This document shows, piece by piece, positions 1,470-22,018 of a DNA stretch of 64,000 bases. Source of the stretch: a candidate division Zixibacteria bacterium HGW-Zixibacteria-1 (GTDB lineage: Bacteria; Zixibacteria; MSB-5A5; GN15; PGXB01); the NCBI GenBank assembly GCA_002838945.1, contig PGXB01000002.1, positions 89,474 to 153,473 on the forward strand, read 5' to 3'. The position numbers and the translations under genes are program-made. Position 1 is the first letter of the stretch. The number at the start of each line of letters is the position of its first letter. The notes beneath the pieces were generated by a model that had not been told where the DNA came from, did no database searches, and saw nothing but the letters and a program-made list of their open reading frames with translations.

Positions 1470-1494
1470 AACATAGTATACAATCTTACTATTA

Positions 1495-3538: not shown

Positions 3539-5037
3539 TTTCTTTTATACACCGCGGCTACGTCGGATTTATACGTTCTGTCATAATTTTCCGCCATTAA
3601 ATCGGCATAATATGGCTGCTCACTGTTTTGCAAAACAACTAAATTCGGAATTTTTTGCGCAACCTGGTCTTTCAAATAAATCCCGTCGCACAAGTTGCAC
3701 TTCAAATACTCTTCATGCGATAACGGTATGCCCAGGTCATAGCCGACAATTTCCGTATATCTGAGCGGTGTCTGCCCGGTAATGAATGTATATCCCGCCC
3801 ATCCTGAGAAAACCGTATCCGTCTCTGAGGCAACCGCCAGCATATGATCGGTAACCTCCCTGACATTCGTTATCCGGAATATCTGATCATGACCCCTCAT
3901 GCCGAAAAGAAAGATGGCAAAATATGGCACCAGCGAAACAACATAAAGCGCCGTCGCTCCGCCAATCATTATTTTAACTGTCGCCGGCTTGACCTTCTCT
4001 TTGAACCATTCCGACAAGAATTGAATACTGAACGCCCCGACAATAATGGCAAACATCAGATAATTATCGACATATCTTCTGGCCATCGGATGCGGTATTG
4101 TAAAGACAATGGCTATCAGGGCAAGATTTAGTACTGCCATACCTTCAGCTTTGATAAACAGGTCTTTGAGCCTGACAATTTTCTTCTTTCTAAAAAGAAA
4201 TATTACAGATACAACAGCCAGTGTAAAAATAATCAGCAAATGCGGGTCAATCAGAACCCGATAGAGAGTGACGAGACGATTCATTACTATATCGCCCAGC
4301 GAGCGGTTAATGTCACGGGTCATTTGAAATATAACATTTCCGTAATAAAACTTCTCAAACGAATTGGCAATAACCAGGGCGTTTGGAAGTGATAACGGTA
4401 TCATCGACAAAATCATAATCCAAAAGTTGCGCCGTCGGTGTTCCTGCGACAGATAATAAACCGAAAGGACATAAGCCGGCAATAGTACCATGAAAAGGGA
4501 TCGAAAACTGATAAGCAAGGATAGGAATAATCCCGAAATGATCAGATATAACAGCCGCTGGCTGTCTCTGAACAACAGCCAGAAATAAAATGTCGCCAGC
4601 GAAAAGAAACCGGTAAAGGGTATTACTTTGAAAGTCGAATGCCAGGCCAATGACATCCCGGAAAAGGCGTACATGAACAGGGCAATGGCCGCAATCCTGA
4701 GGTCTCCGGTTACTTTATAGACTATCAATGTCAAAAACCCCGCCGAGAGAAAGCCGGCCAATACGGCGAAAGCGCACATAGTATAAAATGAGTCCCAGCC
4801 GCCCGAGGCCACCGATGAGAACACCAGCGGAAGGCCCGCGAATTGCGTGTAGAAAAAGTCGGCATACGGCGCCATGCCATCGGCAATCATTCGTGATGCA
4901 TTGAGGTAAAAGCCCTCATCGGCGTCGATTATCCGATAAGCGGCGAATATCCCCAGCAATATCAAATGGACTGACAATATCGCCGGAATTATGTATTTAT
5001 ATTTTTTTGTCTGATCACTATACATTATTATATTCAA
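3535..5037 (-). CDS. GT-C type membrane glycosyltransferase (copy 2)
   Basis: This polytopic protein of about 500 residues (roughly ten hydrophobic segments) has an acidic motif in the first external loop (DADEGFY). That is where GT39/ArnT-like lipid-linked sugar transferases carry their catalytic acidic residue. A C-terminal soluble part ends DVAAVYKRK. It is clearly paralogous to the next upstream gene: both have FLSAG/LLSA helices after a GGW(D/E)SFY motif, an AWHSTFK motif, HPM(A/T)R and TPLRYTE. The frame opens at TTG (5037), overlapping the previous stop by 4 bp; an ATG four codons later is an alternative. Donor and acceptor cannot be told. Its position inside a Bat operon is unusual. 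Confidence 0.7.
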   Translation of the reverse strand: MNIIMYSDQTKKYKYIIPAILSVHLILLGIFAAYRIIDADEGFYLNASRMIADGMAPYADFFYTQFAGLPLVFSSVASGGWDSFYTMCAFAVLAGFLSAGFLTLIVYKVTGDLRIAAIALFMYAFSGMSLAWHSTFKVIPFTGFFSLATFYFWLLFRDSQRLLYLIISGLFLSLLISFRSLFMVLLPAYVLSVYYLSQEHRRRNFWIMILSMIPLSLPNALVIANSFEKFYYGNVIFQMTRDINRSLGDIVMNRLVTLYRVLIDPHLLIIFTLAVVSVIFLFRKKKIVRLKDLFIKAEGMAVLNLALIAIVFTIPHPMARRYVDNYLMFAIIVGAFSIQFLSEWFKEKVKPATVKIMIGGATALYVVSLVPYFAIFLFGMRGHDQIFRITNVREVTDHMLAVASETDTVFSGWAGYTFITGQTPLRYTEIVGYDLGIPLSHEEYLKCNLCDGIYLKDQVAQKIPNLVVLQNSEQPYYADLMAENYDRTYKSDVAAVYKRK

Positions 5038-6506
5038 CGTCTCTTATAAATACTGACCACATCGGATTGGTACGCCTTTTCATAATTCAACTCCAGGATA
5101 TCGGCATAGTACTCCGGCGTATCATAAACATTCACGACCAGTGACGGCGATTTCTCACCAAGTTTTTCGCGCAAATATGTCCTGTCGCATAACTTATGTT
5201 TGAGAAACTCTTTATGCTCCAAGGGTAGATTATATTCATGCGCCACCAGTTCGGTATATCGAAGAGGTGTCTGCCGCGTAAAAAACAGGTATCCCGGCCA
5301 TTCCGACAGAACGGTATCGGCTTCGCCGCCCAGCGCCAGCATTTCAGAGGTCACCTTTTTTATTTCCGAAATGCGATACCGATTGTCATGCGCACGAACC
5401 CCGAATATGAAAATGACAAAATATGGTATAAGGCCGAGAACATACACTGCAGCCACCGCCGTCACCAGACTTTTTCCATAAACCGGCCGAATTCGTTCTT
5501 CGAGCCTTCTTAACAGGACCGGCAAAGCCAGGACTATTATTATAATGGCAAATCCAAGATATTGTTCGATGTACTGGCGGGTCATGGGGTGCGGCAAAAC
5601 ATAAACCCCAAAGATCAGGGCAAAATTCATCAGCGCCATTCCCTTCGGTGTTTTAACCAAATCCCCCGGCAGCTTCATTCCTGAACGTAAGAGATATCCA
5701 ATCGAGAATACTGCCAGTATCATCAAAATTAGCAGTTGAGGATCAATCACCGCCTTCGCCAGTACTTCCAGTTTACTTCCAATTATTGATACAAAACTCC
5801 TGTCGACATCTTTGTAAAGATGGAACATGAGGTTGCCATAAAAGAAATTGGCCGATGAATCATATATTCTAATTAGAGTCGGTCCGGTAAACGGCATCAA
5901 AGAAACCAGGAAAATTAAAACGTTCCGGACTCTGATACCCTGCGATAAAGCGAGAATTGAAATTATGTAAAGCGGTAGAAGTACGATGAATACTGATCTG
6001 AAATTAATCAGAGCTGAAAGCAGAAGCCCGGTTAGAATTAAATCTGTCACTTTTCTATTTTCATAATATCTCAGCCAGAAGAAAAAGGTCGCCAGAGAAA
6101 AGAAATGCGTAAACGGCAGGGTCTTGAATGTCGAATGCCAGGCGATAAACAGCCCGCTGAAAACGTACAGGAATAGAGCCGCTAATGTCGCCTTCGAATC
6201 ACCGGTCATCTTATGTACTGTGATCGTTAAAATTATAGCGGAGAGAAGCCCGGCCAGCACGGCGAACCCGCGAAGGAGGTAAAACGACTCCCAGCCACCG
6301 GCTCCGAAGGGTGCAAAGAGCGACGGCATCATCGACATCTGCATATAAAAGAAATCCGAATACGGCTGCATCCCAAGATGCACCATGCGGGTAGCAATGG
6401 CATACAGGCCCTCATCATGGTCGGTCAGCCGGACAGCGGCAAAAACCGCCAGCAAAACGACATGAATCGCAAGCAACAAAAAAATGGTTCGAAGATGCTT
6501 TCTCAC
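5034..6506 (-). CDS. GT-C type membrane glycosyltransferase (copy 1)
   Basis: The 490-residue polytopic protein has an N-terminal signal-anchor helix, the DHDEGLY acidic loop motif typical of GT-C enzymes and about ten membrane spans. The soluble C-terminus ends DVVSIYKRR. It starts with GTG, two bases after the preceding TPR gene, and overlaps its tandem paralogue by 4 bp. Shared motifs across the whole length show a tandem duplication that has since diverged. The reaction is probably transfer of a sugar from a polyprenyl-phosphate donor to an acceptor outside the cytoplasm. This follows from the fold class, not from any direct evidence. Confidence 0.7.
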   Translation of the reverse strand: MRKHLRTIFLLLAIHVVLLAVFAAVRLTDHDEGLYAIATRMVHLGMQPYSDFFYMQMSMMPSLFAPFGAGGWESFYLLRGFAVLAGLLSAIILTITVHKMTGDSKATLAALFLYVFSGLFIAWHSTFKTLPFTHFFSLATFFFWLRYYENRKVTDLILTGLLLSALINFRSVFIVLLPLYIISILALSQGIRVRNVLIFLVSLMPFTGPTLIRIYDSSANFFYGNLMFHLYKDVDRSFVSIIGSKLEVLAKAVIDPQLLILMILAVFSIGYLLRSGMKLPGDLVKTPKGMALMNFALIFGVYVLPHPMTRQYIEQYLGFAIIIIVLALPVLLRRLEERIRPVYGKSLVTAVAAVYVLGLIPYFVIFIFGVRAHDNRYRISEIKKVTSEMLALGGEADTVLSEWPGYLFFTRQTPLRYTELVAHEYNLPLEHKEFLKHKLCDRTYLREKLGEKSPSLVVNVYDTPEYYADILELNYEKAYQSDVVSIYKRR

Positions 6507-6508
6507 CG

Positions 6509-7435
6509 CTATTTTACATTCTCCTCAAATATCTTCACATTTTCGGCTGCCGAGAGTTTGGCGACATATTCTCCGAAAGCCTGCTGAGCCTTTTCCTGCT
6601 GATAGCTCATAAGCACCTGCGCCTTCACTTCATCGTACGGTTTACCCTCGAATTTGCCGTCTTTATTGGCCTTATAATAATTTTTCATGTCGGTGGTATC
6701 TATATTGATCTGCGGCATAACCTTTTCGACCGCATATTTCTCGATCAAAAGCTGCTTTTCGAGCATTTCTTTTTTCTTTGCAATATCAGGGTCGTTTTCC
6801 ATCCCTTCGCGTATCGCCGCGCGATACATCAACTCCATCCCGATGTACTGGTTAAGAAACAGCCTCTTGCCTTCTTTGCCGACAAATTGCTTCTGCGCCT
6901 CGGTCGGAAGCGTCTGTATCTCTTCATTCAACTGCGACAGAAAAATCGGCACATCGCCTATCTTGGCCACCATCTTATCGCCCTCATGCCCGGCATAGAC
7001 AGAGTCGATATTGGTGCTTTTATCGAGTTCTCGTTTGGCATCGACAATCCGTCCCATCTTTTCCAGCGAAGCAACCAGGTTTTTACCGGCTTCGGCATAA
7101 AAACTCCCGTCCTGATTGAGCGAACGTGCCTTGACATAATGCGCCGCCGCGTTTTCATAATCCCGAAGATTGTCAAAATAAATTTTGGCGATCAGATAAT
7201 TGATATTGGCACGGGTTTCCGGGTCGAGGGCGCGGTCGGTCAGGATTGTATTGTACTCATCTATTGCCGCCTGGTATAGGTTGTTGTCGGCCAGCTCGCC
7301 GGCCAGGTTCTTTTCGGTCCGATAATCACTCCCGGAGCCGTTACTTGATGAAATGAATACCATGTACGCCACCAGGCACAGCGTAATCACGCTCACAAGC
7401 AGTATAATTATTGCTGATGATTTTCCGTTAGCCAT
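6509..7435 (-). CDS. Membrane-anchored TPR protein with SurA_N-like C-terminal region
   Basis: The 308-residue protein has an N-terminal anchor helix (about 8-28), then TPR-like repeats (about 45-150: NLYQAAIDEYNTIL, YENAAAHYVKARSL). The C-terminal part resembles the chaperone region of SurA/PrsA: a VAKIGDVPI segment, a QYIGMELMYRAA helix and a KKEMLEKQLLIEKY helix. No parvulin (PPIase) domain is present. The SD AGAGGC precedes the ATG. Lying between the DUF58 gene and the glycosyltransferases, it probably acts in the periplasm as a scaffold or chaperone for the Bat complex. The function is inferred. Confidence 0.6.
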   Translation of the reverse strand: MANGKSSAIIILLVSVITLCLVAYMVFISSSNGSGSDYRTEKNLAGELADNNLYQAAIDEYNTILTDRALDPETRANINYLIAKIYFDNLRDYENAAAHYVKARSLNQDGSFYAEAGKNLVASLEKMGRIVDAKRELDKSTNIDSVYAGHEGDKMVAKIGDVPIFLSQLNEEIQTLPTEAQKQFVGKEGKRLFLNQYIGMELMYRAAIREGMENDPDIAKKKEMLEKQLLIEKYAVEKVMPQINIDTTDMKNYYKANKDGKFEGKPYDEVKAQVLMSYQQEKAQQAFGEYVAKLSAAENVKIFEENVK

Positions 7436-7448
7436 ATCTTTGCCTCTA

Positions 7449-8324
7449 TTAATGCCTTTTCTCCCTCATTTTGAAAAAGTTGATCAGCGGCAGTATGTAC
7501 GACTGATTGGTGATAATTTGGATAAAATCCAGGTTTATCAGTCGCAATGATCGCTTCAAACCGAAATTATCCGCCTCGGCCTGAGCCGCAAAATCGCTTC
7601 GGAAGGCGTCCGAAGCCGTATCAATCAGAAGTGTCTCCCCCGTTTCGGCATCCTCAAGTTCAATCAACCCGACATTTTCGAACTGCAATTCGCGCGGGTC
7701 GGATATCTTAAGGGCAATCACATCATGTTTGCGGTTGGCGATCCGAAGCGGCGTCATGTAATCCTCCGACAGGAAATCCGAAATCAGGAACACCACCGAC
7801 TTTTTCTTGATGACCCGATTGAAATATTCCAGCGCACCGGATATGTCGGTCCGCGTCCCCTCAGGCTTGAAATGAAGGACCTCTCTGACCAGGCGAAGAA
7901 CATGCGACTTCCCTTTTTTGGGCGGGATGAATTTCTCGATCTTGTCGGTAAAAATTATCATCCCGACCTTATCGTTGTTCTTGACCGCCGAGAATGAAAG
8001 CACGGCACAAAGTTCGGCGGCGGCGTCGGCTTTGTACCGCTCGCGGGTACCGAAAGCGCCCGATGATGAAGCATCGACCAGAAAGATAACCGAAAGTTCA
8101 CGCTCCTCGCGAAATTTCTTCACGTGGGGGTAGCCCGTTCGGGCGGTGACGTTCCAGTCAATCAGGCGAATATCATCGCCCGGCTGGTATTGCCGGACCT
8201 CCTCGAATTCCATTCCCTGCCCTTTGAAGGTGGAATGGTACTCACCCGAGAAAAGATCATTTACCAGCCGTTTGGTACGGATTTCGATCCGCCTGATTTT
8301 CTTGAAAAGCTCTTTCTGATCCAT
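7449..8324 (-). CDS. DUF58-domain protein
   Basis: The 291-residue soluble protein carries the DUF58 signature (YQPGDDIRLIDWNVTART), followed by a VWA-like region with a DASSS metal motif and an FLISDFL segment. DUF58 proteins are regular partners of MoxR ATPases and Bat VWA proteins. Here the gene follows moxR by 18 bp, the standard order. It probably links the cytoplasmic ATPase to the membrane VWA proteins. Confidence 0.9.
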   Translation of the reverse strand: MDQKELFKKIRRIEIRTKRLVNDLFSGEYHSTFKGQGMEFEEVRQYQPGDDIRLIDWNVTARTGYPHVKKFREERELSVIFLVDASSSGAFGTRERYKADAAAELCAVLSFSAVKNNDKVGMIIFTDKIEKFIPPKKGKSHVLRLVREVLHFKPEGTRTDISGALEYFNRVIKKKSVVFLISDFLSEDYMTPLRIANRKHDVIALKISDPRELQFENVGLIELEDAETGETLLIDTASDAFRSDFAAQAEADNFGLKRSLRLINLDFIQIITNQSYILPLINFFKMREKRH

Positions 8325-8342
8325 GGCGCGCTCTCCGGCCGA

Positions 8343-9332
8343 TCATGGCACTTCAATAGTGTCAAACAACTGCTGTACGATATCATCCGAGGTCTTTTCC
8401 TCGGCTTCGGCCTCATAGGTGATAATTATCCGGTGTCGCAGGACATCGGGACCGATAGCTTTGATATCCTCGGGCGTGATGTATCCCCGGCCCCTGAGGA
8501 AAGCATGCGCCTTGGCCGCCAGGTTCAGATATATGGTGGCGCGGGGTGATGCGCCGTAACTGATAAAGTCCTTTATTGATGCCAGACCGTATTTTTCCGG
8601 TTCGCGAGTGGCAAAGACGATATTCAGGATATATTTCTTGACCTTGTCATCGACATAAATTTCCGAAATGACTTTTCTGGCGTTGACAATATCCTGGGGT
8701 GTAATCACTTTATCGACCTTGATCGGTTTGCCGGTGGTCATCCGGTCCATTATTTCACGCTCCTCGGATGGGGTCGGGTAGGTAACTTTCAGCTTGAGCA
8801 TAAAACGGTCGACCTGCGCTTCCGGAAGCGGATAAGTGCCTTCCTGCTCAATCGGGTTCTGGGTAGCCAGGACCAGAAACGGCTCATCCAGCTTATATGT
8901 ATTATCCCCGATTGTCACCTGGCGCTCCTGCATTGCTTCCAGCAAGGCCGACTGCACCTTGGCGGGAGCACGGTTGATTTCATCGGCCAGGATGATATTC
9001 GAAAATATCGGACCCTTCTTGACCGAAAATTCCCCCTTCTGGGGATTATATATCATGGTGCCGATAAGATCGGCCGGGAGAAGATCGGGCGTAAATTGTA
9101 TGCGCCGGAATTTCGTATCAATGGCATCCGACAAGGTCTTAACCGAAAGGGTCTTGGCCAGACCGGGGACACCTTCCAGCAGCACATGGCCGTCGGCCAG
9201 AATGCCCATCAGCAGTCGCTCCACCATATATTTCTGGCCGACAATTACGTTACTGATTTGTGAAAGCAATTTTTCGACAAATACCGATTCCTTCTCGACA
9301 ACCGCCTGAATCTGTTCAATGTCCTTGTTCAT
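8343..9332 (-). CDS. moxR: MoxR-family AAA+ ATPase
   Basis: The 329-residue AAA+ ATPase has Walker A in GVPGLAKT, Walker B in LADEINRAPAKVQSALLEAM, a sensor in LATQNPIEQEGTYPLPEAQ and a C-terminal lid with GASPRATIYL. These are hallmarks of the MoxR group, which acts as a chaperone-like ATPase on VWA-domain partners. A GGAGG SD sits four bases before the ATG. The context (batD-like upstream, DUF58 and batA/batB downstream) fits the canonical moxR-bat arrangement. Confidence 0.95.
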   Translation of the reverse strand: MNKDIEQIQAVVEKESVFVEKLLSQISNVIVGQKYMVERLLMGILADGHVLLEGVPGLAKTLSVKTLSDAIDTKFRRIQFTPDLLPADLIGTMIYNPQKGEFSVKKGPIFSNIILADEINRAPAKVQSALLEAMQERQVTIGDNTYKLDEPFLVLATQNPIEQEGTYPLPEAQVDRFMLKLKVTYPTPSEEREIMDRMTTGKPIKVDKVITPQDIVNARKVISEIYVDDKVKKYILNIVFATREPEKYGLASIKDFISYGASPRATIYLNLAAKAHAFLRGRGYITPEDIKAIGPDVLRHRIIITYEAEAEEKTSDDIVQQLFDTIEVP

Positions 9333-9356
9333 TTTGCCTCCAATTTATGACAACAT

Positions 9357-10235
9357 TTATTTTCTGAATATATCATCAATCTCTGTCGCCAGCCGAACCA
9401 CATCGCCCGGCGAACCGGTTCCGGGTGCAAATTTCTCCTTGTCGGCCTGCATCAGCCACTGCCCGATCTTCTCCTTCAAAACGACCGGCATTTCAAGCGG
9501 CTCCATTTCAGCCAGCATCAACTGCGTGGTCTTTCCTGACAAGTTAAGATTGTGGCTGTTTTCCAGATAAATCACAAGAATTCGATGCAAACGAGTGAAA
9601 AACTGTTTGCGATCGTTGGAAAAATCTCGCTTGACATTTTCCAGCTCTTCCAAAAATTTCTGACCGGGCGTAATCTCCGGTTCTACCCGGACCGACTTTT
9701 TCCTCACAATGATGATGATAACTACAACAACCACCACCAGTGCCGCCAGCAAAATCAAAATTTTGGCAAACCAAGGCAGGTTGGTTTCGTTGCCCCTCAG
9801 CAACGGAGCCGCGATAAGAACCTTAAATTGCTGGGTGGCAAGCTGGCCGGTCGTGGAGTCGGGCACATGTACATAGTCAAGTGTTACCGGCTCGATTGTT
9901 CCTACTCCGGCTTGGGTCGGCCGCAAAACATATTTAAATGTCCTGATAGTGATGCCCTGCCCTTCACTTGTCTTGCTGGAAATCGATGAACTGGTACCGG
10001 CAACCTTCAGATTTTCACAAGTGGGAAGTGGCAGAACCTGAAAATTGTAGGCGGTGATATCACCGAGCCATTTGATCTCGACCGTCAACGTCACACTGTC
10101 TTCGAAAGCGATATCGGTTTTATTGACGCTTCCGGTCAGGCTGATCTCTGAAGCAGCGGCTGATGTAACAGAGAGCGCCGTCGCCAGAATCAGGATAATA
10201 ATTATTCGTCTATATTTATGTTTATCTTCATTCAT
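9357..10235 (-). CDS. batD: BatD-like protein
   Basis: The 292-residue protein has an N-terminal signal segment (about 9-28, ending AAAS). An immunoglobulin-like domain follows (SVNKTDIAFEDSVTLTVEI), typical of the N-terminus of BatD. One strong transmembrane helix (about 152-176) and a charged helical cytoplasmic tail (about 180-292) complete it. It is much shorter than classical BatD proteins and lacks repeated Ig modules. It is the first gene of the Bat run, 119 bp after the UbiA gene. I saw no convincing promoter hexamers or terminator in that gap. Confidence 0.72.
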   Translation of the reverse strand: MNEDKHKYRRIIIILILATALSVTSAAASEISLTGSVNKTDIAFEDSVTLTVEIKWLGDITAYNFQVLPLPTCENLKVAGTSSSISSKTSEGQGITIRTFKYVLRPTQAGVGTIEPVTLDYVHVPDSTTGQLATQQFKVLIAAPLLRGNETNLPWFAKILILLAALVVVVVVIIIIVRKKSVRVEPEITPGQKFLEELENVKRDFSNDRKQFFTRLHRILVIYLENSHNLNLSGKTTQLMLAEMEPLEMPVVLKEKIGQWLMQADKEKFAPGTGSPGDVVRLATEIDDIFRK

Positions 10236-11244: not shown

Positions 11245-12888
11245 TTAAAACTGTCCCGAAAACGAGACTATCAGACGCGGTTCGGCGAATTTTGCGCCTT
11301 CCGCCCATGAAAATTCAAGCTTGAGGTCGCGACTGCCTGATGTCAGTTTGATGCCGATACCGTAACCGAATTTAATATCATCCTCTTTGACATATATATT
11401 TTCCTGATCAAGAACATATCTCTCATAATATGCGCCGTCGACAAAAGGATAAACGTAATCGCTTCGGGCGAAAAACAGTCTAATTTCTGACGTGGACAGT
11501 ATCAGCCGCTGGGCCGAGAATTGATCGTTACGATAGCCCCGAAGCGTTCCCGGTCCGCCGAAAAGAACCAGCTCCGATACCGGCAGCGGCTTTTCGGAAC
11601 TCTCAATATCATAAACCGCGCCGGCCTGATAGCCGCCGAAAACACCAAGCGCGGTGGCAGCCGCTTCGGCCTTAAGAAAGGCCCGGGAATCATTATAAAT
11701 GGCCCTTTCCAGCGAGACCGAGTCGGCCTTCTGGCGGTACCTTCGTCCGGAGTACTTAACCTGCCACTCAAGTGCAAATGAAACCGGGGCGCCGCAGCTG
11801 TTATCGATTCGGCCGGCTTTTGCGCCCACTCCGACTTCGTACACGCGAAATGATCGAAGCAGGGCCGATGATGGCTCTACATTTTTCCAACCCAACTCGG
11901 TATTGAGCATCAGCCCGATCCCGGCTGACAACTCATATCTGGCGCCGAGTGCGAATTCATAAAATTGGTCGCGATAATCACGCGTCTGAATATTCAACTG
12001 GATATTCCCCGGTCCAAGCAGGAAGAGCGGCTGTCCGTAGTACACCCGGAAAATAGATTTATATTTTTCCCGGGAATCACCCAGCAACCCGGCCCTCTGC
12101 CCTCGCCCAAAGAGATTTCTGCCTTTTATATCTAGATACCAGACATAGTAGCCGTCATCTTCAGGAATATACCCGGCCGCCCCTTCAAAATAAAATTGCT
12201 GCTTTTCACTCAGGCTATACCGGATGCGAGCCGTCTCATAGCCCGCATCAGGAATAACTTCAGGCGGGCCGGTCAGTCCTGCAAAGTCAAGTTGTCCCAG
12301 AATACTCTGTGACCGGTCGATATTATCCATGGAGATGATATCGCCCCGGTTAATGCCGACAAGCTTTCTCATAAAATCAACATCGGTTCTCTTCAGTCCG
12401 ACAAATTCGATATTCGAGACATGGACCAGCGGTCCCTCGGCCGCTTTCATATAAACATCAATTTTGTCATTATATTTCTCGAATCGTGCCGGAATCATCG
12501 ACACATAATATCGCCCGCTTTCCTGATAGGGTCTAAGAAATTCATCAAGCGTACTGCTGATAATTCCGTAGGAAAGCGGCGACTCAATCGTAATTGTATC
12601 ACTTATTTCGCCTTCAATAATAATTTTCCCGATATAGTACCGGGGGCCGAATCGAACATTTAATAACATCCCGGTATCGCCATCGGAAAACTGTATTTCA
12701 TTATCAAGAAAACCCTGCTCGGTGAGGAACAGCGACAGAGAATCTTCCGGATTTTTCATACCGCGGGCATTACTTTCGACCTTTCGTTTCCATCCCGCTT
12801 CACCGTCCATGAAGACAACGCGAACATCTCCGGCAAGGGCAGCACAAGCGATCAGGCTGATCAATATTATGTATTTAAAAGCTCGCAA
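11245..12888 (-). CDS. Omp85/BamA-TamA family outer-membrane protein
   Basis: The 547-residue protein has a signal peptide (1-19) and POTRA-like modules (about 60-215, including GPRYYIGKIIIEGEI and GPLVHVSNIEFVGLKRTD). A beta-barrel (about 225-547) carries the surface-antigen hallmark GGPGTLRGYRND and ends in phenylalanine, the usual outer-membrane targeting residue. It is much shorter than BamA and has only about two POTRA units, so it is more like TamA or a dedicated secretion or insertion factor. It starts at TTG with a GGAG motif six bases upstream and overlaps the upstream barrel gene by 14 bp, suggesting a joint function. Confidence 0.85.
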   Translation of the reverse strand: MRAFKYIILISLIACAALAGDVRVVFMDGEAGWKRKVESNARGMKNPEDSLSLFLTEQGFLDNEIQFSDGDTGMLLNVRFGPRYYIGKIIIEGEISDTITIESPLSYGIISSTLDEFLRPYQESGRYYVSMIPARFEKYNDKIDVYMKAAEGPLVHVSNIEFVGLKRTDVDFMRKLVGINRGDIISMDNIDRSQSILGQLDFAGLTGPPEVIPDAGYETARIRYSLSEKQQFYFEGAAGYIPEDDGYYVWYLDIKGRNLFGRGQRAGLLGDSREKYKSIFRVYYGQPLFLLGPGNIQLNIQTRDYRDQFYEFALGARYELSAGIGLMLNTELGWKNVEPSSALLRSFRVYEVGVGAKAGRIDNSCGAPVSFALEWQVKYSGRRYRQKADSVSLERAIYNDSRAFLKAEAAATALGVFGGYQAGAVYDIESSEKPLPVSELVLFGGPGTLRGYRNDQFSAQRLILSTSEIRLFFARSDYVYPFVDGAYYERYVLDQENIYVKEDDIKFGYGIGIKLTSGSRDLKLEFSWAEGAKFAEPRLIVSFSGQF

Positions 12889-15800
12889 TGATCTCTCCCC
12901 GTCCGGTGATTCTTGGTTTTCTGTCGTCGGAATGCCGCCCGCTGAAGGAGATGTTTATTCGCAGGTCTTTTTTGACTCTGTAATCGGAGCGAATCGACCA
13001 GATGAACCCCCGGCCGCCATATCTGTTATCAATCAGGCGGTATGAGACAAATCCCGCTGCTTTGATATCCTGCCGGTATCCCTCCAGTTTGATCGATGTT
13101 TCCCCGCCCGCAACCAATCGCAACCGGGGATTAACGGTGACAATGTACTGCTTGCTTCTGGCGCCGTTCTCATCTTCGGCAAAGCGATATGCCGCCGATC
13201 CGTTAAGCTGTCCGCCCGAAAAAATCCTGATGACATTCATCTGAACCTTATAGCCATCGATGTTGTCCGGTGAAGAATAATAACTGTCGTGCTTATACCT
13301 GAAATAATTCCCCTCCTCAATAAAACGCCATTCACCGGAAGCCTCATTCAAGGCGCCCTTAATTGCTGATTCGGATTTATTAAAGTCGGAACCGCCGATT
13401 CGCCGGCTCTCAAAATTATATGACGACGTCAGATTGAAAAAGTAGTAGTCGGCATAATGCAGCAGCTTGGTTTCTCCCTGGTACGATAATCGGCGCAGTA
13501 AATATGGCTGATCTCCGTCGGAATAAAAAGGCAGCATCCAGAGCAGTGTCCGGTTCCCCGATTCGAGCAAATCCTCGGTACTGTTGGTCGTCAATTTCAA
13601 ATACACATCGGTCGGATTATAGAAAAACTGAAACGATTTCTCGCCCTTGCTCACTTGCGCCTGCGAAGAATGAATTTCCTCGATTTCGATGTAATTGCCG
13701 TCGGCGTCCGGTATGTACTGACCATCGACAAGAATGAACTGCCCCTGCCCCGATTCGACCTCGATATAACGAACCCCCCGTTCAAACCGGTTTTCGTCGG
13801 ATAGGGCATATGAAGCGCCAACCACCAGATTTTGTCTGACCGGTGAATAGGTTCCCCTCACTCGAGCCATCAACTGCTCCTCGATCAGATCACCGTAATT
13901 GACTTGCCGCGCCGTAAGATAAACTTCACCGCCCACATCCCCGATCTTGCCCAGGATGGTCAGTCTCCCCTGGTGGCGTGCGACAATATTTTTCCAGTCC
14001 GCAAGCAGCGTATCTTCATCATATTTTTCCAGCTCGATCCGGGCCGGCCCGTATCGATATGCAATATTGTACTTCTTTTCGGTAGTTCCTCTTAACGTGC
14101 CATAATACTGATTCTGCCGCCGGTCATGACCAAATCCGGCTGTGACGCCGGATTTATCGGTGATATCATAGTTCAAGCCCACATTATAGGTCTCATTCAC
14201 TCCCTCAAGCGCGACATCGGCCGTGTCATACCGCGCCGTCAGCCTCCGATATCTCAACATGGGAAGCAGCGAACTGATATTATCCGGCGACAGCATTACG
14301 GCGCCATAGTAGGAATTGAATTGATTATCATAATCAAGCAGGGCCGAATTAAAATGGAAATTGTATGGCCCTGGAATTATAATCGAGGATGCCAGATCAT
14401 ATTCCCTTTCATCACCCAGCGGCCTCAAATTATCCGGAATAAGAAATTCCCTATCCCTGTCCGGCCGGTTGCGACGGGTTCGGGCTTTGAAATTTTTATT
14501 AATTATATTGGCGGAAAAATCAAGGCCGGATTTATCGGGATAGAGGGTCGGCCTGCCGCCGACACCGGCCAGGAAAAGATACTGCCCGCCGATATTATTA
14601 TTATCATTTAAAGCAGAATACAGATTCCGATCATAACTGCTATGTCGCATTATAATATTGAAACGACTGCTCTCCCACGGCTTTAAACCCAGTTCCGTTT
14701 CAAAATAATCTTCACGCTCGGGGACCGGTATTTTGATCACCGGCAGATAGTCGCCATTGTTCCTCCCCACATAACGGTAGATGTCATTACCGTCAAAAAG
14801 ATAATCGCCGCTGCCGACCGGACTGAAAGCCACCCGGTACTCTCCGGCACTGTCCCCGACATATTCAAAATAGCGGTCTCCGGTTGTATCGAACCTTTCC
14901 ATGTAGGAACCGTTGGTGTCAAAAACGGCGCCGTCTCTGGTGTTGAATGAAACCGAATCGCCGATATTTTCAAGCAAAGCAATATCTTCGGCGCCAAGCT
15001 CGCCCACCTTCAGACGGTCACGGCTGTCGCCCTCGCGAATAAAGCCCGTTTTGAAAAATACGGTCGAATCTGCGGACATTACGCCGCCAGAAGCCTGATA
15101 TATTTCCCGTTGATAATCCGAGGTCAGCGGTTCGAAATCGATTTCGATTCGCGATCGCGAATCAACCAGAATGCGGGGGGTGAAAGTTATGGTCGCGGCA
15201 GGATAATCCATAATGTAGTCTTTATCCGCGCCGCGCTCAAGTAGCTGTCCATCGACCCAGGCCTTTTCGGAACCGGGTACAATGGCCTCGGACCGATTTT
15301 CAGCGGCGACTCGATATGGTCCCTGGATTCGATCCTGCCCTTGAAACCTGACTGTCTTAAATCTGCCCCTGGGACGGCCGAACATGGTCGAAACATCATA
15401 GTGACCGGTCTTAACCGCGGCCTTGATACCGCTGACCTGTTTTGGCGGCGAACCGCCATATGCGGATGATTGATTGAATTCCAAATTTCCGATTTCGGAA
15501 TAAAAAGTCTTGGAGTAAATTTTCAGATTCAGTTTATCCAATTCGCTTATGCGGCTGTTTATGGCGCCATAAGCCGGGTCATATCCGCGATCGGCGACCG
15601 ACCCGGCTATCTCCAGGCCGGGCGAGATTTCACCCCGAATCGTCATTTCCAATGATTGATTAAATTGCGAGGTCCCCCCGGTCTGGGAAATAATGGAAAA
15701 CTTCTTGGCCCCGCTAATAGATACCAAGGCCTCATCGCGGGCCTTTCCCGGAACCGTAAGCGAAGTTACGGGCGGTTCAACGCTCGGGAGCGGTCTGTCG

Positions 15801-16135
15801 GCCTGACCCGGCATTATGCCGTATTGTTTCTTGAGCCACGCCGGAAGCGGGGTATAGTAAATTGTTAGTTGCTGATATTCATTATGAGGCGATGATAATG
15901 TCAGGACTCCCTCGATGTAGTCGATCTTATAATCGGCATCCCGCACAAGCAGAAGACCATCGGCGATCAGGCTGTCGGAGTCACTAACAATCGGACCGTT
16001 ATGCAATCTGATCCGCGATTTGACCTCATCCGCCTTTAAAATCCTGACAGCCCCGTTTATGTTTTGAAAGAATATAAGAATAATCAGAAATATCAGGGCG
16101 GCAGGCTGATAAGGAATTTTGTTATCTCTGGACAT
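12875..16135 (-). CDS. Very large outer-membrane beta-barrel protein, unknown family (SprA-like motifs)
   Basis: The 1086-residue protein has a signal anchor at 11-29 and two units with the pattern DYxIDYxxGxxxx near residues 68-80 and 305-320. It also has a QSLEMTIRGEI..ELDKLNLKI segment (about 160-207). The remaining 650 residues alternate aromatic and polar residues like a large barrel and end in IIASF. The repeated DYxIDY and ELDK wording recalls SprA, the T9SS translocon, but SprA is usually over 2000 residues, so this is only a resemblance. It sits between an NHL lipoprotein (1-base overlap) and an Omp85 protein (14-base overlap). I do not claim a function beyond outer-membrane barrel. 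Confidence 0.7.
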   Translation of the reverse strand: MSRDNKIPYQPAALIFLIILIFFQNINGAVRILKADEVKSRIRLHNGPIVSDSDSLIADGLLLVRDADYKIDYIEGVLTLSSPHNEYQQLTIYYTPLPAWLKKQYGIMPGQADRPLPSVEPPVTSLTVPGKARDEALVSISGAKKFSIISQTGGTSQFNQSLEMTIRGEISPGLEIAGSVADRGYDPAYGAINSRISELDKLNLKIYSKTFYSEIGNLEFNQSSAYGGSPPKQVSGIKAAVKTGHYDVSTMFGRPRGRFKTVRFQGQDRIQGPYRVAAENRSEAIVPGSEKAWVDGQLLERGADKDYIMDYPAATITFTPRILVDSRSRIEIDFEPLTSDYQREIYQASGGVMSADSTVFFKTGFIREGDSRDRLKVGELGAEDIALLENIGDSVSFNTRDGAVFDTNGSYMERFDTTGDRYFEYVGDSAGEYRVAFSPVGSGDYLFDGNDIYRYVGRNNGDYLPVIKIPVPEREDYFETELGLKPWESSRFNIIMRHSSYDRNLYSALNDNNNIGGQYLFLAGVGGRPTLYPDKSGLDFSANIINKNFKARTRRNRPDRDREFLIPDNLRPLGDEREYDLASSIIIPGPYNFHFNSALLDYDNQFNSYYGAVMLSPDNISSLLPMLRYRRLTARYDTADVALEGVNETYNVGLNYDITDKSGVTAGFGHDRRQNQYYGTLRGTTEKKYNIAYRYGPARIELEKYDEDTLLADWKNIVARHQGRLTILGKIGDVGGEVYLTARQVNYGDLIEEQLMARVRGTYSPVRQNLVVGASYALSDENRFERGVRYIEVESGQGQFILVDGQYIPDADGNYIEIEEIHSSQAQVSKGEKSFQFFYNPTDVYLKLTTNSTEDLLESGNRTLLWMLPFYSDGDQPYLLRRLSYQGETKLLHYADYYFFNLTSSYNFESRRIGGSDFNKSESAIKGALNEASGEWRFIEEGNYFRYKHDSYYSSPDNIDGYKVQMNVIRIFSGGQLNGSAAYRFAEDENGARSKQYIVTVNPRLRLVAGGETSIKLEGYRQDIKAAGFVSYRLIDNRYGGRGFIWSIRSDYRVKKDLRINISFSGRHSDDRKPRITGRGEIIASF

Positions 16136-17106
16136 TACTCCGGATAGATAATCTTATAAATCATGATTCGATCATTACCGGTATCACTTACCGCAATACG
16201 ATCACCCGGGAGAAGCGCCACATCGCCCGGCTGGTTCAATTCATATTCGCCGCTGGTGCCATACTCCCCGACAGAATAAAGCAATATTCCATCGCGGTCA
16301 AAACAAAAAACCGAAGACAGTTTGGAATCGACCACCCAAATATTACCATATTTATCGACCTTCAACCCCGCCGGACGCTTGAAAACATCATAGCCAAAAT
16401 CGAAAAGATAAATTCCAAAACTGTCGAAGGCATAGACTCTTCCCTTGCCTTCATCGCTGACCAGGATCCGCCCCTTAAGGCCGCGGGCAACCGCCCCCGG
16501 CGTCAGCAGAAGGCCGGAATATGTCCGGACATCGCCGACAAACCGGTCAAACTCGGTATTGCTGTCGAAAACAGCCACCCGCGAGTTGTCGGGATCGGAT
16601 ATCCAAAGTTCGCCGTATTCATTGATGGCCAGACCTCCCGGACGGCCGAACCTGGCGGGATCATCGGCATCGAAAAAATCAATCATGTTTACATAATTCA
16701 GGCGGGTATCATAGATTGAGATTCGCCTGTTGCCGGCATCCGCAACATAGAGATTCAAATTATTGTCGATTGAAATATAGTTGGGGGAGTTGAACAAAGT
16801 CTCCGAAATCCCGTATCCGCCGGTTTCTCTCATCGGTTTCAATTCGCGATCGAATTTTACCAAGCGATTATTTCCGGCATCCACGACATACAGGTTTCCG
16901 GCATCATCGGAAGCCAGCCCGATTGGATCGGAAAGTTTCTGGCCGATGACATCAGTCGTAATTCGATTTTCATAGATGATCGCATATGGTTTACCGGCGA
17001 ATGGCGCTTCCTCACCGGGACCCGACTTTGGCCGGCATCCGGCAGATATTAATCCCTGAAGCGCCAGCAGGAGAAGAAAAATATGCGTCAATGACCTTTT
17101 TGTCAT
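16135..17106 (-). CDS. NHL-repeat lipoprotein
   Basis: The 323-residue protein has a signal peptide and a lipobox-like SAGC near residue 23. About six NHL beta-propeller blades follow, recognisable by D..GN(L/I)YVVD.GN.R(L/I).(K/V)(F/Y)D motifs at intervals of about 45 residues. NHL propellers usually mediate protein or ligand binding. The start overlaps the previous stop by one base (TAATG). Anchored at the membrane and encoded beside two outer-membrane barrels, it may be an accessory lipoprotein of a barrel complex, as PorW- or SprE-like lipoproteins are in T9SS. That last step is inference. Confidence 0.8.
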   Translation of the reverse strand: MTKRSLTHIFLLLLALQGLISAGCRPKSGPGEEAPFAGKPYAIIYENRITTDVIGQKLSDPIGLASDDAGNLYVVDAGNNRLVKFDRELKPMRETGGYGISETLFNSPNYISIDNNLNLYVADAGNRRISIYDTRLNYVNMIDFFDADDPARFGRPGGLAINEYGELWISDPDNSRVAVFDSNTEFDRFVGDVRTYSGLLLTPGAVARGLKGRILVSDEGKGRVYAFDSFGIYLFDFGYDVFKRPAGLKVDKYGNIWVVDSKLSSVFCFDRDGILLYSVGEYGTSGEYELNQPGDVALLPGDRIAVSDTGNDRIMIYKIIYPE

Positions 17107-17909
17107 TAAAATCGTCTGGTCAATTTTATTGAAACTTTGGGGTTGCTTCCAAAAGGATTAGCTTTAAAACTCAGTTTGACATCATTGCCAAGATCACCTC
17201 GGAATTTATCGACCCGAGAATTAAGTTTTTTCCGCGCCAGGCGGAAGGCATCGATACCGGCAATAATCCGGTTCAATACCGCCATTCCGATCATGAAATC
17301 ACGGTTGCGATAGGCGGTTTCGCTGTCGTTGCGCATCCCGCGGTACGAATTCCGGCTGTTATCGGTGTCCCAGTCCCAATAAAAAGAGGCGGTGTTGTAA
17401 TAGTAGGGATCGCCTGGATCAATAACACGTCCGGCCGTATTATAATCTTCGCGTGAATCATAGAAAGTCAGATTTTTGTAAAAATCTTCATTCTTCCCGG
17501 CCGGATCAATTCCGGCATGTTTCTCGGCGTAATTGATATAGTCGTTTTCTTTCCATTTGCCGTAAATCTGAAAAGCCGCTACCCCAGCCCATGAAACAAC
17601 TTCGGCACCCACAAACACCTCACCCCGCCCCTTTTCCTCGAGATAAAAGTGACCCGCGCCGGGCATAAGCAATGACAGGAAGACGGCCTTGCTTTTCGAA
17701 ATGGATTTTGACCCGGCCGGAGCCGCCGCCGGCTCATCCCCAGGAACATCAAATTTCTTCATCTGAAAATTATCATTGACGGCCATTTCGACCGGCCCAT
17801 AAAGTGGAGAGATCGGCAGGTCGATTTTGGCCCGGCAATTACGGCCGGCTATGGCGACCGTGAGAATAGAGAAAACCGTTATGACTGCTATTCTGCAAAA
17901 TATCTTCAT
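17106..17909 (-). CDS. DUF5683-like membrane-associated protein (paralogue B)
   Basis: The 267-residue protein has a signal segment and a hydrophobic stretch SKAVFLSLLMPGAGHFYLEE at about 75-95. This PG.G..Y motif is the mark of DUF5683-type proteins. A second hydrophobic region (VFVGAEVVSWAGVAAF) and a helical region with the sequence IGMAVLNRIIAGIDAFRLARK follow. It shares this layout with the preceding gene (SLLVPGLGERY; MVNHLLSAFDSALAAKR), so the two are paralogues. No enzymatic motif is visible. Its neighbours suggest an envelope role connected to the secretion cluster. Confidence 0.6.
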   Translation of the reverse strand: MKIFCRIAVITVFSILTVAIAGRNCRAKIDLPISPLYGPVEMAVNDNFQMKKFDVPGDEPAAAPAGSKSISKSKAVFLSLLMPGAGHFYLEEKGRGEVFVGAEVVSWAGVAAFQIYGKWKENDYINYAEKHAGIDPAGKNEDFYKNLTFYDSREDYNTAGRVIDPGDPYYYNTASFYWDWDTDNSRNSYRGMRNDSETAYRNRDFMIGMAVLNRIIAGIDAFRLARKKLNSRVDKFRGDLGNDVKLSFKANPFGSNPKVSIKLTRRF

Positions 17910-17910
17910 A

Positions 17911-18729
17911 TCAGAACCTGCATGAAATCTTTAAGATTGGTATAGATTCTGTGGCTGAATATTTTTGCATATCGGCCCTGACCGAAAGCCACATCTCGGC
18001 GGATTTACTCTTGTTATGACGTTTGGCCGCAAGAGCGGAATCAAAGGCCGAAAGCAGATGATTCACCATCGACAGAATAATAAAATTATTGGCCTGGTCA
18101 AGCTTGTCGTTGGCCTTCTGCCGATCAAGATTGTAAGTGAGCCGCACCGGCGATTCGGTCGAGTCATATAAATCCGGATCAAAATCACTCCACCCCGCCC
18201 TGAATTGATCGTATTTACCGATCATTTCATAGTATTGCTGATCTCTTGTTTCCGGGAGTTGATGCGTCAGGTCTTCCTCATTGAAATTATTTGCAGCCAG
18301 CCAGTCACGATAAGCCTGCTCATTCCAATTGCCATCAGCATAATTCTCGAAATCATCCGACAATTTCTGGCCGTCATTATGATAATTAAAATAACCCATC
18401 CACATTCCGGCCTCGACACCAAGGAAGAACAGTGATTTCAAAACATTGGACTTGGTGTACCGTTCTCCCAGTCCCGGAACCAGAAGCGAATATATAAAGG
18501 CCTTCTTGGGCGATTTGAAATCATATTCATAAATAGTCTCGGCCTCATCGAAACCAAAAGTGAAATCATCTCCCTGCTGTCCCTCGCCGGTAAAGGTATT
18601 GACATACTCGGCTCCCCCGCTGCGCAAATCCTGTATTTGCAGCTCCAGCTGACTGTTTTCCAAATCATAGGCCAGGACCGGTACTTGCAGCAGGGCCAGC
18701 ATCATAACGGTTAAAAGTACCTTTTTCAT
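17911..18729 (-). CDS. DUF5683-like membrane-associated protein (paralogue A)
   Basis: The 272-residue protein has a cleavable signal (1-20, ending VLAYD), then AFIYSLLVPGLGERY (about 75-90) followed by a short hydrophobic segment (SLFFLGVEAGMWMGYF). A long tyrosine- and asparagine-rich middle and a helical C-terminal segment (NNFIILSMVNHLLSAFDSAL) follow. An AGGAGA SD is placed six bases before the ATG. It ends one base before the next gene, its paralogue. The function is unknown. The conserved PGLG.RY turn and the flanking hydrophobic patch suggest a protein embedded in or lying on the inner membrane. Confidence 0.6.
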   Translation of the reverse strand: MKKVLLTVMMLALLQVPVLAYDLENSQLELQIQDLRSGGAEYVNTFTGEGQQGDDFTFGFDEAETIYEYDFKSPKKAFIYSLLVPGLGERYTKSNVLKSLFFLGVEAGMWMGYFNYHNDGQKLSDDFENYADGNWNEQAYRDWLAANNFNEEDLTHQLPETRDQQYYEMIGKYDQFRAGWSDFDPDLYDSTESPVRLTYNLDRQKANDKLDQANNFIILSMVNHLLSAFDSALAAKRHNKSKSAEMWLSVRADMQKYSATESIPILKISCRF

Positions 18730-18739
18730 TTTATCTCTC

Positions 18740-21700
18740 CTACTTAATGATTGCTATATCGGTAAATGAGGTCAACGTTTCCCCGGCAAAATCGGCTTCG
18801 ATGACACAGCGATAAACGCCGGATGGAAGCGACGAACCATCCCACATCATTTCTTCATATGAACCGGCCCGGCCGGTCAAATTATATTCGTCGGAAACTT
18901 TTTTGCCCGACATATCATAAATGTTCATGGTGACATCAGCATCGTCCCCGACAAAGAAGCGGATAGTGGTCCGGCCGTCATAAGTCGGGTTGGGATAACA
19001 GAAAAATTTGTCATCGGGCAGCTTATCGGCATAGGTCGCCACCGGTTTGAGCCTGCTGTCAGGAAGATAGTACTGGTGTGTCGGCCCGCCGCCGGCCATC
19101 GGCCAGTCAGCTTTAGCCGAATCAAAACTCACATCATATGAGTAAAACCAGCCGTCGATTCCCAGAAAACCCAGGCCGCCGCCGTTGGTTTTCTTGAACA
19201 GTACGGGCGAACCGATCTCCAACCCCCCCGCTGCCAGCGGGAAACCGAATAACAACGCTTCATCGAATGAATATTTGCTGCTGAAGGCATAACAGCGCCC
19301 GCCGGAAGTAGAGACCACGATATCCTTGACGCCGTCCCTGTTGATATCGCCAACAACCGGCGATGAAATCACATAAGAATTGGGAAAGCTCCGGTCAATT
19401 ACCAGCGGGAAATTCATGAGATTTACCAGATTTCTGTCAAGCGCAAGTATCTTATTTCTGCCACCGAAAATAATATCGGGATAACCGTCTTCATCGAGAT
19501 CGGACACGATTGGATTTACAAAAATGGAATCACCGAGGCTGATCGAATTATAAAGACTCAAAGAATTGTTTGCCGCGTCTATCGTCACTATTTTGACGTC
19601 GCCTTCAGGAGTGGCCATAATAACCTCTGGAAGATCGTCGCGATTCAGATCCGCCGCCACCGGGCCGAGAGTGTACTGTCCCTCGAGATCGTAACTGATA
19701 AAATCGGTATCACTGTAAATATAGTACATCCTGACAACCAAAGAATCCCCAGCCAGCAGGGCATACTTATAGTCAATATTGGACGCCCCATAGAATTCAG
19801 GCTCGTCAATAATAGGCGATGCCGGCATGGTCAGGCCTCCGCTTTCGGGAATATTAATCAGGCGAACATTGGATAATGCTGTATCTACTGCGGCAAACGT
19901 CAGTGAATCCCCGAATGAAATCCAGACAATCGGCCGGTTTCCATAGCTCAGTGAATCGAATTTACGCTCCGCCATGCCGTCCAGGTTGGCATCATTTGTG
20001 GAATAAACATAGAGCCATCTCCCGGCCGCCACCGCCACAAACAGCGAATCGGTATCAAGTCCGAAATTACCGACGGCCGGTCCGGCCGTGATATTTTCCG
20101 GCGTCCGGGCGAATATCGGCACCGGATAAACCGGATTATTGCCGCCGAAATCCTGAACCGGCGGTGATGCCGATATCGGGTCCGAGTAGAGGTAATAATT
20201 TGCGATATTCAGGACATATGATGTATCGAGAAACGGCGGGCCGTACGACGGTGTAATATCGGTGCTGTCTTCATTCACCACGATTACGTTCCTTCCCGAT
20301 GCCGCTATTAACTCGGTCGTTCCGTCTTTATCAAGATCGGCCGCAATCGGCGACAAACTGTAAACGGGCGATCCGGCCCGCTGCGGGAAACCATCCGACA
20401 CAAAATCACGCTCCAGATCAAAGGTCATGGTCGTTCCCGACTCCGAAATATTGCTGACATAAATATGTGAATTGGTTCGGCCATATCCTTCAGCCGGCGG
20501 GTTCGTATTGGGCGTAAATGATGTATTGTTGCCGGCATAGTACATATCTTTTGCGGTGCCGTAACCGGAATAGTAAATACCGCCGAAATTGACCAGTCCG
20601 TCGGCCTCCATAAGCTTGACAAACGGGCGGTCGGGATCCAGTTGAAGCTGATTGTCAAAGAAATTATTATATCCGTTGCGATTATAATCCAAATATGCCA
20701 CAATCTCATCGACTTTCCAGATCAGCATCCCCGAACCCGGCAACAGGAAATCATATTCACCGGTAAGGTTACGCTGGATGTCACTCGGCCCCAGTATGAC
20801 CGAAGTCGTCGAATCGGCCAGAATAACGGTGGTCTTGCCGTCAATATCTTCCTGACGGTTTTCAATCAGGAAATATTCAAATTCCGAAATCGGCAGTTTG
20901 CCGATTCTGGTACCGGCCGAGGCCATTTCCGCGGCCGCAACTTCGATGGATGTCCCCTGCCTGAAAACCACCGGATCATCGAACCCAAGAAAGGCCCGAG
21001 ACCAGGCCATCGGGTATATCGGCGATGTCCCGAAGGCGCGGCCGACCTCGAAACCAAAATCGACCCCGGTTCCGAATCCGTTATTATCCATTAGACCGAA
21101 ATCGCCGATCATGGTGAAAAAATTGTCGGTTCGATAAAGATCAATCAGCCCCAGCTGGTGTCCGAACTCGTGGGCTATGACCGCATTAAGAGCGGTGGCC
21201 CGGTTATCCTGGCTGGCCGTCTCCGGCATAATCAGGGCATCGACGACCGCCGTTGAGTCGATCCCGTTATTGTCGAGATAGAGGGCCGAGTCAATCAGGA
21301 AAATATAACCGGTGTAAAAATCGGAAGGAGTCGAGGGAAAACCGATATCATTCTGCCGGTCGGAACCGGCATGAAACAGGAAGTATGAATCATAATCGGC
21401 AAATCGAACATTAGCATCGATAGTATCGACTAACCTGAAACAGTCTATAAAATATTCGGTCAGGCCCAAGTATGGGTTCTGCGAGCCATAATATCCCATG
21501 GTATTGTTAAGATGATAAGCCTCCGAGTCGGCCTGCGGATAAATGTCCCAGACCAATTCTATCCTGCCGTCTGAAACGAAGAAATAATAATTACGCAGGG
21601 CCTCGAAATGTTTGTCAAAATATTTTTTATCGTGCGGCGACGGATCGATCATATGCCCGAATTCCTGCTGGAAAGCAAGAGTGTCGCGCAGATCGAACTT

Positions 21701-22018
21701 TCCGCGGCCGGTCGTCAGAGGATTATCCGGACTCTCATTCAGAAAATCGAACCTCAGGCCCAGAAGTCTGATCGTATCCACGGCCGCGGCGGCGGCATTC
21801 ATCTTGGGAAGCGACCAGGGGTGCTCACGTTCAAGATTCAGGATATTGCGCGGCGACGGCTTCGAATGGAAACCGTTTAAGACGACGCGCGGATCATTTG
21901 GATCGATCGCCTTTTGTTCTATTGAGAGAGGCTCCAGTACCTTTGTCCCGTCGCCGAAAACAGACGATGACAGGGCCATCACTGCCAGTAGTACTGTATA
22001 TAATCCTGTTTTTTTCAT
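18740..22018 (-). CDS. Secreted M6 metalloprotease with FG-GAP-like repeats and T9SS sorting domain
   Basis: The 1092-residue protein has a signal peptide (1-22). An immune-inhibitor-A (M6) zinc protease domain follows, with HEFGHQLGLID at 283-293: H283 and H287 as zinc ligands, E284 as catalytic base, D293 as probable third ligand, and a later GLMD turn. A set of FG-GAP/VCBS-like repeats comes next (ADLDKDG, ADLNRDD, SDLDEDG, GDINRDG), likely a calcium-binding propeller. The C-terminal 80 residues (CYPNPTYDGRTTIRF to the end) match the type-A T9SS sorting-domain pattern: YPNP, IYDMSGK, GVY. It is the obvious cargo of the sortase-like protein encoded two genes upstream. Confidence 0.9.
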   Translation of the reverse strand: MKKTGLYTVLLAVMALSSSVFGDGTKVLEPLSIEQKAIDPNDPRVVLNGFHSKPSPRNILNLEREHPWSLPKMNAAAAAVDTIRLLGLRFDFLNESPDNPLTTGRGKFDLRDTLAFQQEFGHMIDPSPHDKKYFDKHFEALRNYYFFVSDGRIELVWDIYPQADSEAYHLNNTMGYYGSQNPYLGLTEYFIDCFRLVDTIDANVRFADYDSYFLFHAGSDRQNDIGFPSTPSDFYTGYIFLIDSALYLDNNGIDSTAVVDALIMPETASQDNRATALNAVIAHEFGHQLGLIDLYRTDNFFTMIGDFGLMDNNGFGTGVDFGFEVGRAFGTSPIYPMAWSRAFLGFDDPVVFRQGTSIEVAAAEMASAGTRIGKLPISEFEYFLIENRQEDIDGKTTVILADSTTSVILGPSDIQRNLTGEYDFLLPGSGMLIWKVDEIVAYLDYNRNGYNNFFDNQLQLDPDRPFVKLMEADGLVNFGGIYYSGYGTAKDMYYAGNNTSFTPNTNPPAEGYGRTNSHIYVSNISESGTTMTFDLERDFVSDGFPQRAGSPVYSLSPIAADLDKDGTTELIAASGRNVIVVNEDSTDITPSYGPPFLDTSYVLNIANYYLYSDPISASPPVQDFGGNNPVYPVPIFARTPENITAGPAVGNFGLDTDSLFVAVAAGRWLYVYSTNDANLDGMAERKFDSLSYGNRPIVWISFGDSLTFAAVDTALSNVRLINIPESGGLTMPASPIIDEPEFYGASNIDYKYALLAGDSLVVRMYYIYSDTDFISYDLEGQYTLGPVAADLNRDDLPEVIMATPEGDVKIVTIDAANNSLSLYNSISLGDSIFVNPIVSDLDEDGYPDIIFGGRNKILALDRNLVNLMNFPLVIDRSFPNSYVISSPVVGDINRDGVKDIVVSTSGGRCYAFSSKYSFDEALLFGFPLAAGGLEIGSPVLFKKTNGGGLGFLGIDGWFYSYDVSFDSAKADWPMAGGGPTHQYYLPDSRLKPVATYADKLPDDKFFCYPNPTYDGRTTIRFFVGDDADVTMNIYDMSGKKVSDEYNLTGRAGSYEEMMWDGSSLPSGVYRCVIEADFAGETLTSFTDIAIIK

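Follow-up and report, generated by a model that had tools for sequence, protein, structure and literature searches.

A SprA-related protein with a predicted giant barrel, encoded with type IX secretion genes in a Zixibacteria bacterium

The window analysed here, a stretch of 64,000 nucleotides from the candidate division Zixibacteria bacterium HGW-Zixibacteria-1, carries a series of genes linked to the type IX secretion system (T9SS). In the order of transcription these encode PorU, PorV, a secreted protein with a sorting tail, two DUF5683-like proteins, an NHL propeller protein, a barrel protein that we call P0001, an Omp85-family protein and UbiA, and they are followed by a BatD/MoxR/DUF58 cluster (Table 1). 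P0001 is encoded on the minus strand by a single open frame of 1086 codons. The first-pass annotation of this DNA had reported overlaps of the gene with its Omp85 and NHL neighbours and a terminal phenylalanine, and both are there: the overlaps span 14 bases and 1 base, respectively, and the C-terminus reads ...GRGEIIASF, with the last residue invariant across an alignment of 23 orthologs. Two DYxxDY units, DADYKIDYIEGVLTL and KDYIMDYPAATITF, and the segment QSLEMTIRGEI..ELDKLNLKI are also present as quoted there. In the AlphaFold model a disordered linker (residues 106-134, pLDDT <50) connects the first unit to the barrel.

Table 1. Genes and protein segments of the locus, with positions in the window (residue numbers are those of P0001)
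Feature	Position	Strand	Evidence
PorU, T9SS sortase, 1311 aa	24911..28846	-	NF033707, 662.9 bits (cut-off 420)
PorV-family protein with propeller insertion, 948 aa	22046..24892	-	NF033709, 253.7 bits (cut-off 90)
Secreted protein with T9SS sorting tail	18740..22018	-	TIGR04183, 26.1 bits (cut-off 23)
Second DUF5683-like protein	17911..18729	-	PF18935, E 2.5e-5, just under cut-off; position conserved
DUF5683-like protein	17106..17909	-	PF18935, E 9.4e-6, just under cut-off; position conserved
NHL beta-propeller, probable lipoprotein, 323 aa	16135..17106	-	PF01436, E 5.7e-32
SprA-related giant barrel protein P0001 (predicted)	12875..16135	-	Open frame; orthologs in 47/60 relatives; 38 strands in AlphaFold model
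Signal-peptide-like N-terminal stretch, residues 1-29	16049..16135	-	Sequence; helix 10-24 in model
First DYxxDY unit, small beta domain, residues 38-94	15854..16024	-	hhalign to SprA unit, 78%, E 1.8e-5
QSLEM..ELDKLN..VSG..RPRG segment, predicted barrel strands 2-7, residues 155-266	15338..15673	-	Homologous to SprA 184-292
Second DYxxDY unit, predicted extracellular insert between strands 7 and 8, residues 283-337	15125..15289	-	hhalign to SprA, E 4e-16
Barrel hairpin, residues 341-375	15011..15115	-	Homologous to SprA 654-681 (hhalign)
SxxDxN/LDDxDN strand, residues 482-504	14624..14692	-	Homologous to SprA 723-745 (hhalign)
Predicted transmembrane barrel, 38 strands, residues 137-1086	12878..15727	-	DSSP on AlphaFold model; loop phase
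Omp85-family partner, POTRA + barrel, 547 aa	11245..12888	-	PF01103, E 3.7e-7; PF07244, E 2.2e-6

Among the neighbours, the sorting-tail protein resembles a cargo type annotated as 'inactivated M6 metalloprotease' (NF052323, 327.7 bits, under the cut-off of 600). The Omp85 neighbour scores above the cut-offs of both the POTRA (PF07244) and the Omp85 barrel (PF01103) models and far under that of the BamA equivalog (55.6 vs 297). It is a POTRA-bearing member of the family of BamA, TamA and TamL, to which P0001 itself does not belong. In the PorV homolog the PorV fold appears to be split, with residues 17-68 and 657-947 matching PorV models on either side of an insertion of roughly 590 residues that carries a two-component-regulator-type propeller repeat. 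This long form is kept in Zixibacteria (about 870-950 aa), and the PorV of genome L080 has the usual 328 aa. The Bat-type cluster after the T9SS genes (MoxR, DUF58, BatA/VWA and BatD; window positions 1-10235) includes two PMT-like glycosyltransferase genes (3535-6506) and is mostly syntenic across Zixibacteria.

P0001 matched no Pfam family, and its sole NCBIfam match, to SprA, was sub-threshold (24.6 bits, cut-off 200). The members that we tested from Fibrobacter and Bacteroidota likewise matched no Pfam family and no NCBIfam family over threshold. Relatives, mostly full length and 28-64% identical, were found in 47 of the 60 related genomes, and with a family range of about 950-1270 aa a length of 1086 aa is normal. 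Scanning the contigs of named genomes returned relatives mainly from Candidatus Zixiibacteriota, and also from L080, L081, one Bacteroidota bacterium (L082) and Fibrobacter. By profile search, relatives were found in 147 of 247 Bacteroidota genomes, mostly a single one in each and about 1050-1270 aa long; in the phylum of L080, 19 of 20 genomes have one. The alignment of the Fibrobacter profile with the Zixibacterial one extends over 834 columns (E 3e-34), and therefore the 950-aa and 1086-aa proteins make up one family. Its members tend to occur as one copy per genome, are conserved from end to end and come from several phyla. Our search of the open literature returned no description of this family and no paper naming a SprA paralog or a SprA-like barrel; a paper on tandem genes of Flavobacterium collinsii concerns other proteins. 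As far as sequence can tell, the family is separate from SprA and has no Pfam or NCBIfam model, in line with the earlier suggestion that P0001 might belong to an undescribed family. In the single-contig genome G005 the barrel protein was matched over its second half only (G005:C1:1114269-1116978) and the Omp85 gene consists of two distant pieces (G005:C1:182238-183233), which suggests that the module is in decay or rearrangement there.

The nearest relative of the family is SprA/Sov, the outer-membrane translocon of the T9SS (TIGR04189, PF14349; PDB 6h3i, 8gl6). TIGR04189 matches 27 of 32 members of the barrel family, below cut-off and with a best E of 2.7e-9; in P0001 the match covers residues 284-335, the second DYxxDY unit. 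The N-terminal SprA model PF14349 (SprA_N) had no match in P0001, its 31 relatives or the Bacteroidota members, and searching PDB sequences directly, with P0001 alone or with the family profile, gave nothing meaningful. In a comparison of narrow Zixibacterial alignments, the match to SprA was confined to the two DYxxDY units and the hairpin that follows unit 2, and the similarity of the QSLEM segment became significant once both profiles were broadened. For the broadened comparison by hhalign we used 88 barrel family and 42 SprA sequences, with 100 column permutations as the control. Four segments were then found in the same order in the barrel family and in SprA, each beating all 100 permutations: residues 155-266 against SprA 184-292 (E 5.6e-6, score 39 vs a permutation maximum of 19), 285-337 against 599-647 (E 4e-16), 342-370 against 654-681 (score 18.0 vs 12.2) and 482-504 against 723-745 (E 1.7e-4, score 21.2 vs 12.3). 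The crops were picked after viewing a rough alignment and the small segments need caution; the first two are strong on their own. The C-terminal half of the barrel gave no significant match to SprA with the same profiles. By profile comparison, then, P0001 is colinearly homologous to SprA, only over residues of about 155-504, and both the proposed kinship to SprA and the resemblance of the QSLEM segment to it are borne out.

hhalign shows the two DYxxDY units of P0001 to be related (96%, E 2e-9), and both match one and the same SprA unit. Because they are related in this way to each other and to the SprA unit, for which the broad profiles gave the low E value listed above, their common wording is not due to chance. 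Weak similarity to the SprA unit was seen at two further places in the window's genome, in an 843-aa frame (G000:C12:81707-81802, E 0.19) and in a 270-aa frame (G000:C18:10203-10304, E 0.53), so further surface proteins may contain this unit.

P0001 had been described as less than half the usual length of SprA, and this is about right against the 1981 aa of SprA in the same genome or the 2403 aa of the SprA whose structure was solved. The local similarity could in principle reflect a reduced or degenerate SprA that has replaced SprA in this lineage, but we regard this as most improbable. A normal SprA (620 bits, about 1981-1997 aa) is encoded on another contig of the window's genome, which refutes the idea as stated, 58 of the 60 Zixibacterial relatives have SprA as well, and the copy number, end-to-end conservation and spread of the barrel family noted above also speak against it. 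The proposed 'reduced translocon pore' therefore fails on the full-length SprA kept in the genome and on a predicted strand number that is not reduced. P0001 lacks most of the inserted domains of SprA; the extra N-terminal region and the large inserts of the middle part are missing.

The AlphaFold2 model of P0001 (32 sequences, mean pLDDT 83.7, pTM 0.71) has 38 long strands by DSSP, from residue 137 to 1085/1086. A model of a Fibrobacter relative, made from Fibrobacter sequences only and of moderate confidence (pLDDT 69.7, pTM 0.59), also has 38, strand for strand. In P0001 the loops that follow odd strands total 353 residues, single loops reaching 98, and those that follow even strands total 70 and are never longer than 10; the corresponding sums in the Fibrobacter model are 314 and 80. 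This phase, kept along the whole chain, is what marks an outer-membrane barrel whose turns are short on the inner side, where the two ends of the chain also lie. Given the phase, the inserts at residues 256-340 and 376-473 would be extracellular, and we infer the same location for the second DYxxDY unit. Loop length was more telling than a strandwise test of inside and outside hydrophobicity, which was weak (15 of 40 strands at p <0.1, poorest for the N-terminal strands). Barrel closure and the precise strand count (36 or 38) are predictions; SprA itself is a 36-strand barrel that is capped on the outside and has a lateral opening (PMC10994853).

The first-pass annotation had named structure prediction as a check, with a barrel of more than 30 strands in favour of its idea and a small barrel, or a match to TonB-dependent receptors or LptD, against it. 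With 38 strands predicted in two models, the barrel is not small. Matches to LptD and TonB-dependent receptors do occur in Foldseek, beside SprA and with low TM-scores, and on the sequence side Pfam found no plug, TonB or LptD/OstA domain in P0001, its relatives or the Bacteroidota members. LptD has 26 strands and TonB-dependent receptors have 22, against about 38 predicted here, and their Foldseek similarity is what any large antiparallel barrel would give. The best PDB matches of P0001 in Foldseek were SprA chains (8gl6, E 1.9e-8; 8gl8, E 8.1e-8), with TM-scores of about 0.2, and for the Fibrobacter model LptD came first, ahead of SprA. VIA-align returned porins and AlgE at Z of about 16, a generic barrel match, and SprA was not among the 50 matches listed. 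We took the Foldseek matches to indicate a large barrel only, with SprA not singled out. The S-layer deinoxanthin-binding barrel SlpA of Deinococcus (7zgx, 8ae1), which is also large and has an extended N-terminal part, was a Foldseek match too; a point of difference is that it forms trimers in an S-layer-bearing envelope, and the PDB sequence searches gave no match between the two.

In the window the barrel gene lies downstream of porU and porV. This neighbourhood is conserved in Zixibacteria, and the order porU-porV-cargo-barrel-Omp85 is found again in L080, L081, L191 and L192, all from the phylum of L080. Most Bacteroidota copies are found among housekeeping genes, not T9SS genes. Across the 247 Bacteroidota genomes the barrel and SprA occur together in 147, SprA without the barrel in 43, neither in 57 and the barrel without SprA in none (Fisher 7e-29, a statistic that ignores shared ancestry), and no barrel without SprA was seen in the surveyed genomes of Bacteroidota and Zixibacteria. 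Because many T9SS genomes do not have the barrel, it is an accessory of the T9SS rather than a core part. A pore that passes something other than T9SS proteins, such as a polysaccharide, lipid or glycan, and that makes use of the T9SS solely for the delivery of surface components, would suit the usual location of the Bacteroidota gene away from T9SS genes and the high Foldseek ranks of LptD and of the alginate exporter AlgE. We consider it improbable, since the structural matches are explained by generic barrel similarity, no LptD or TonB family is matched by sequence, and the barrel gene stands next to porU-porV in two phyla.

The barrel gene is also closely linked to the Omp85 gene. In the 60 Zixibacterial genomes both were present in 44 and both absent in 12, the latter including the single-contig genome G008; the four discordant genomes are all drafts of 240-580 contigs. 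The concordance (56/60) is significant (Fisher 4e-9), again by a statistic that ignores shared ancestry. PorU (59/60) and SprA (58/60) stay whether the pair is present or absent. The two genes are adjacent in three separate groups, Zixibacteria, Fibrobacter and the phylum of L080, and in Fibrobacter they stand side by side despite different surroundings. The NHL gene follows the presence pattern of the pair in Zixibacteria only in part; it lies directly upstream of the barrel gene also in L191 and in five of about 50 Bacteroidota loci. Upstream of the Fibrobacter pair, at L089:8059-9448, two genes encode a small Ras-like GTPase and a Roadblock protein with a match to an MglB model, a hint from sequence of an MglA/MglB-type switch near the module; loci L083, L087, L099 and L103 have similar gene sizes, with families assigned in L089 only. 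About 4.5 kb upstream of the Bacteroidota relative, L082 encodes a fusion of a patatin-like phospholipase with an Omp85 barrel (L082:2627-5359).

We conclude that P0001 is very probably a T9SS-associated, SprA-related giant barrel of the outer membrane. Of the first reading of this locus, the undescribed SprA-related family stands and the reduced translocon does not. P0001 and SprA have in common the colinear N-terminal segments with the DYxxDY unit, the terminal phenylalanine, a very large barrel with big outer inserts (both predicted here), and the link to PorU/PorV and to T9SS genomes. They differ in that P0001 has about half the length of SprA (about 2000-2400 aa) and co-exists with it, shows no detectable homology in its C-terminal half, falls short of the TIGR04189 cut-off, and has no PF14349 match.

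As to function, we give about an even chance to the whole chain in which P0001 serves as an accessory of the T9SS, a second large gated pore or a docking barrel that works with PorV and PorU and is inserted or assisted by the Omp85 protein. P0001 would be exported by Sec and then form an outer-membrane barrel of about 38 strands, and its two big outer inserts (256-340 and 376-473) would cover the outer mouth like the SprA cap. Acting with PorV and PorU, the barrel may then receive or let through some of the T9SS substrates; transport by the barrel is something that we infer. In Zixibacteria, Fibrobacter and the phylum of L080, the adjoining Omp85 protein would be dedicated to the barrel, as its insertase or partner. 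A giant barrel that organises the surface, holding or displaying T9SS-delivered proteins as a docking platform like PorP-type anchors and with no passage through it, is rather unlikely in our judgement. The strict dependence of the barrel on T9SS genomes, combined with its being dispensable for the T9SS, its long and conserved outer loops and the NHL propeller partner gene would all fit such a platform, but the homology is to the translocon SprA and not to PorP-like anchors, and a 38-strand barrel far exceeds what a platform needs. The broadest form of the accessory-pore reading, in which many T9SS bacteria have a second, so far overlooked giant outer-membrane pore of ~38 strands, more than SprA has, with a separate substrate set and in several groups an Omp85 insertase of its own, is one that we put forward tentatively and hold to be less than even in probability.

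SprA, with its 36 strands, has been described as an exceptionally large barrel. More than three in four of the sampled Bacteroidota that have SprA (147/190) carry the family reported here, which has no name in Pfam or NCBIfam. If the interpretation is true, descriptions of the type IX system have so far missed a component, a second family of giant barrels related to SprA. Comparing this family with SprA would also be a natural way to ask which elements of SprA form the pore and which the gate, and whether giant barrels depend on Omp85 insertases of their own.
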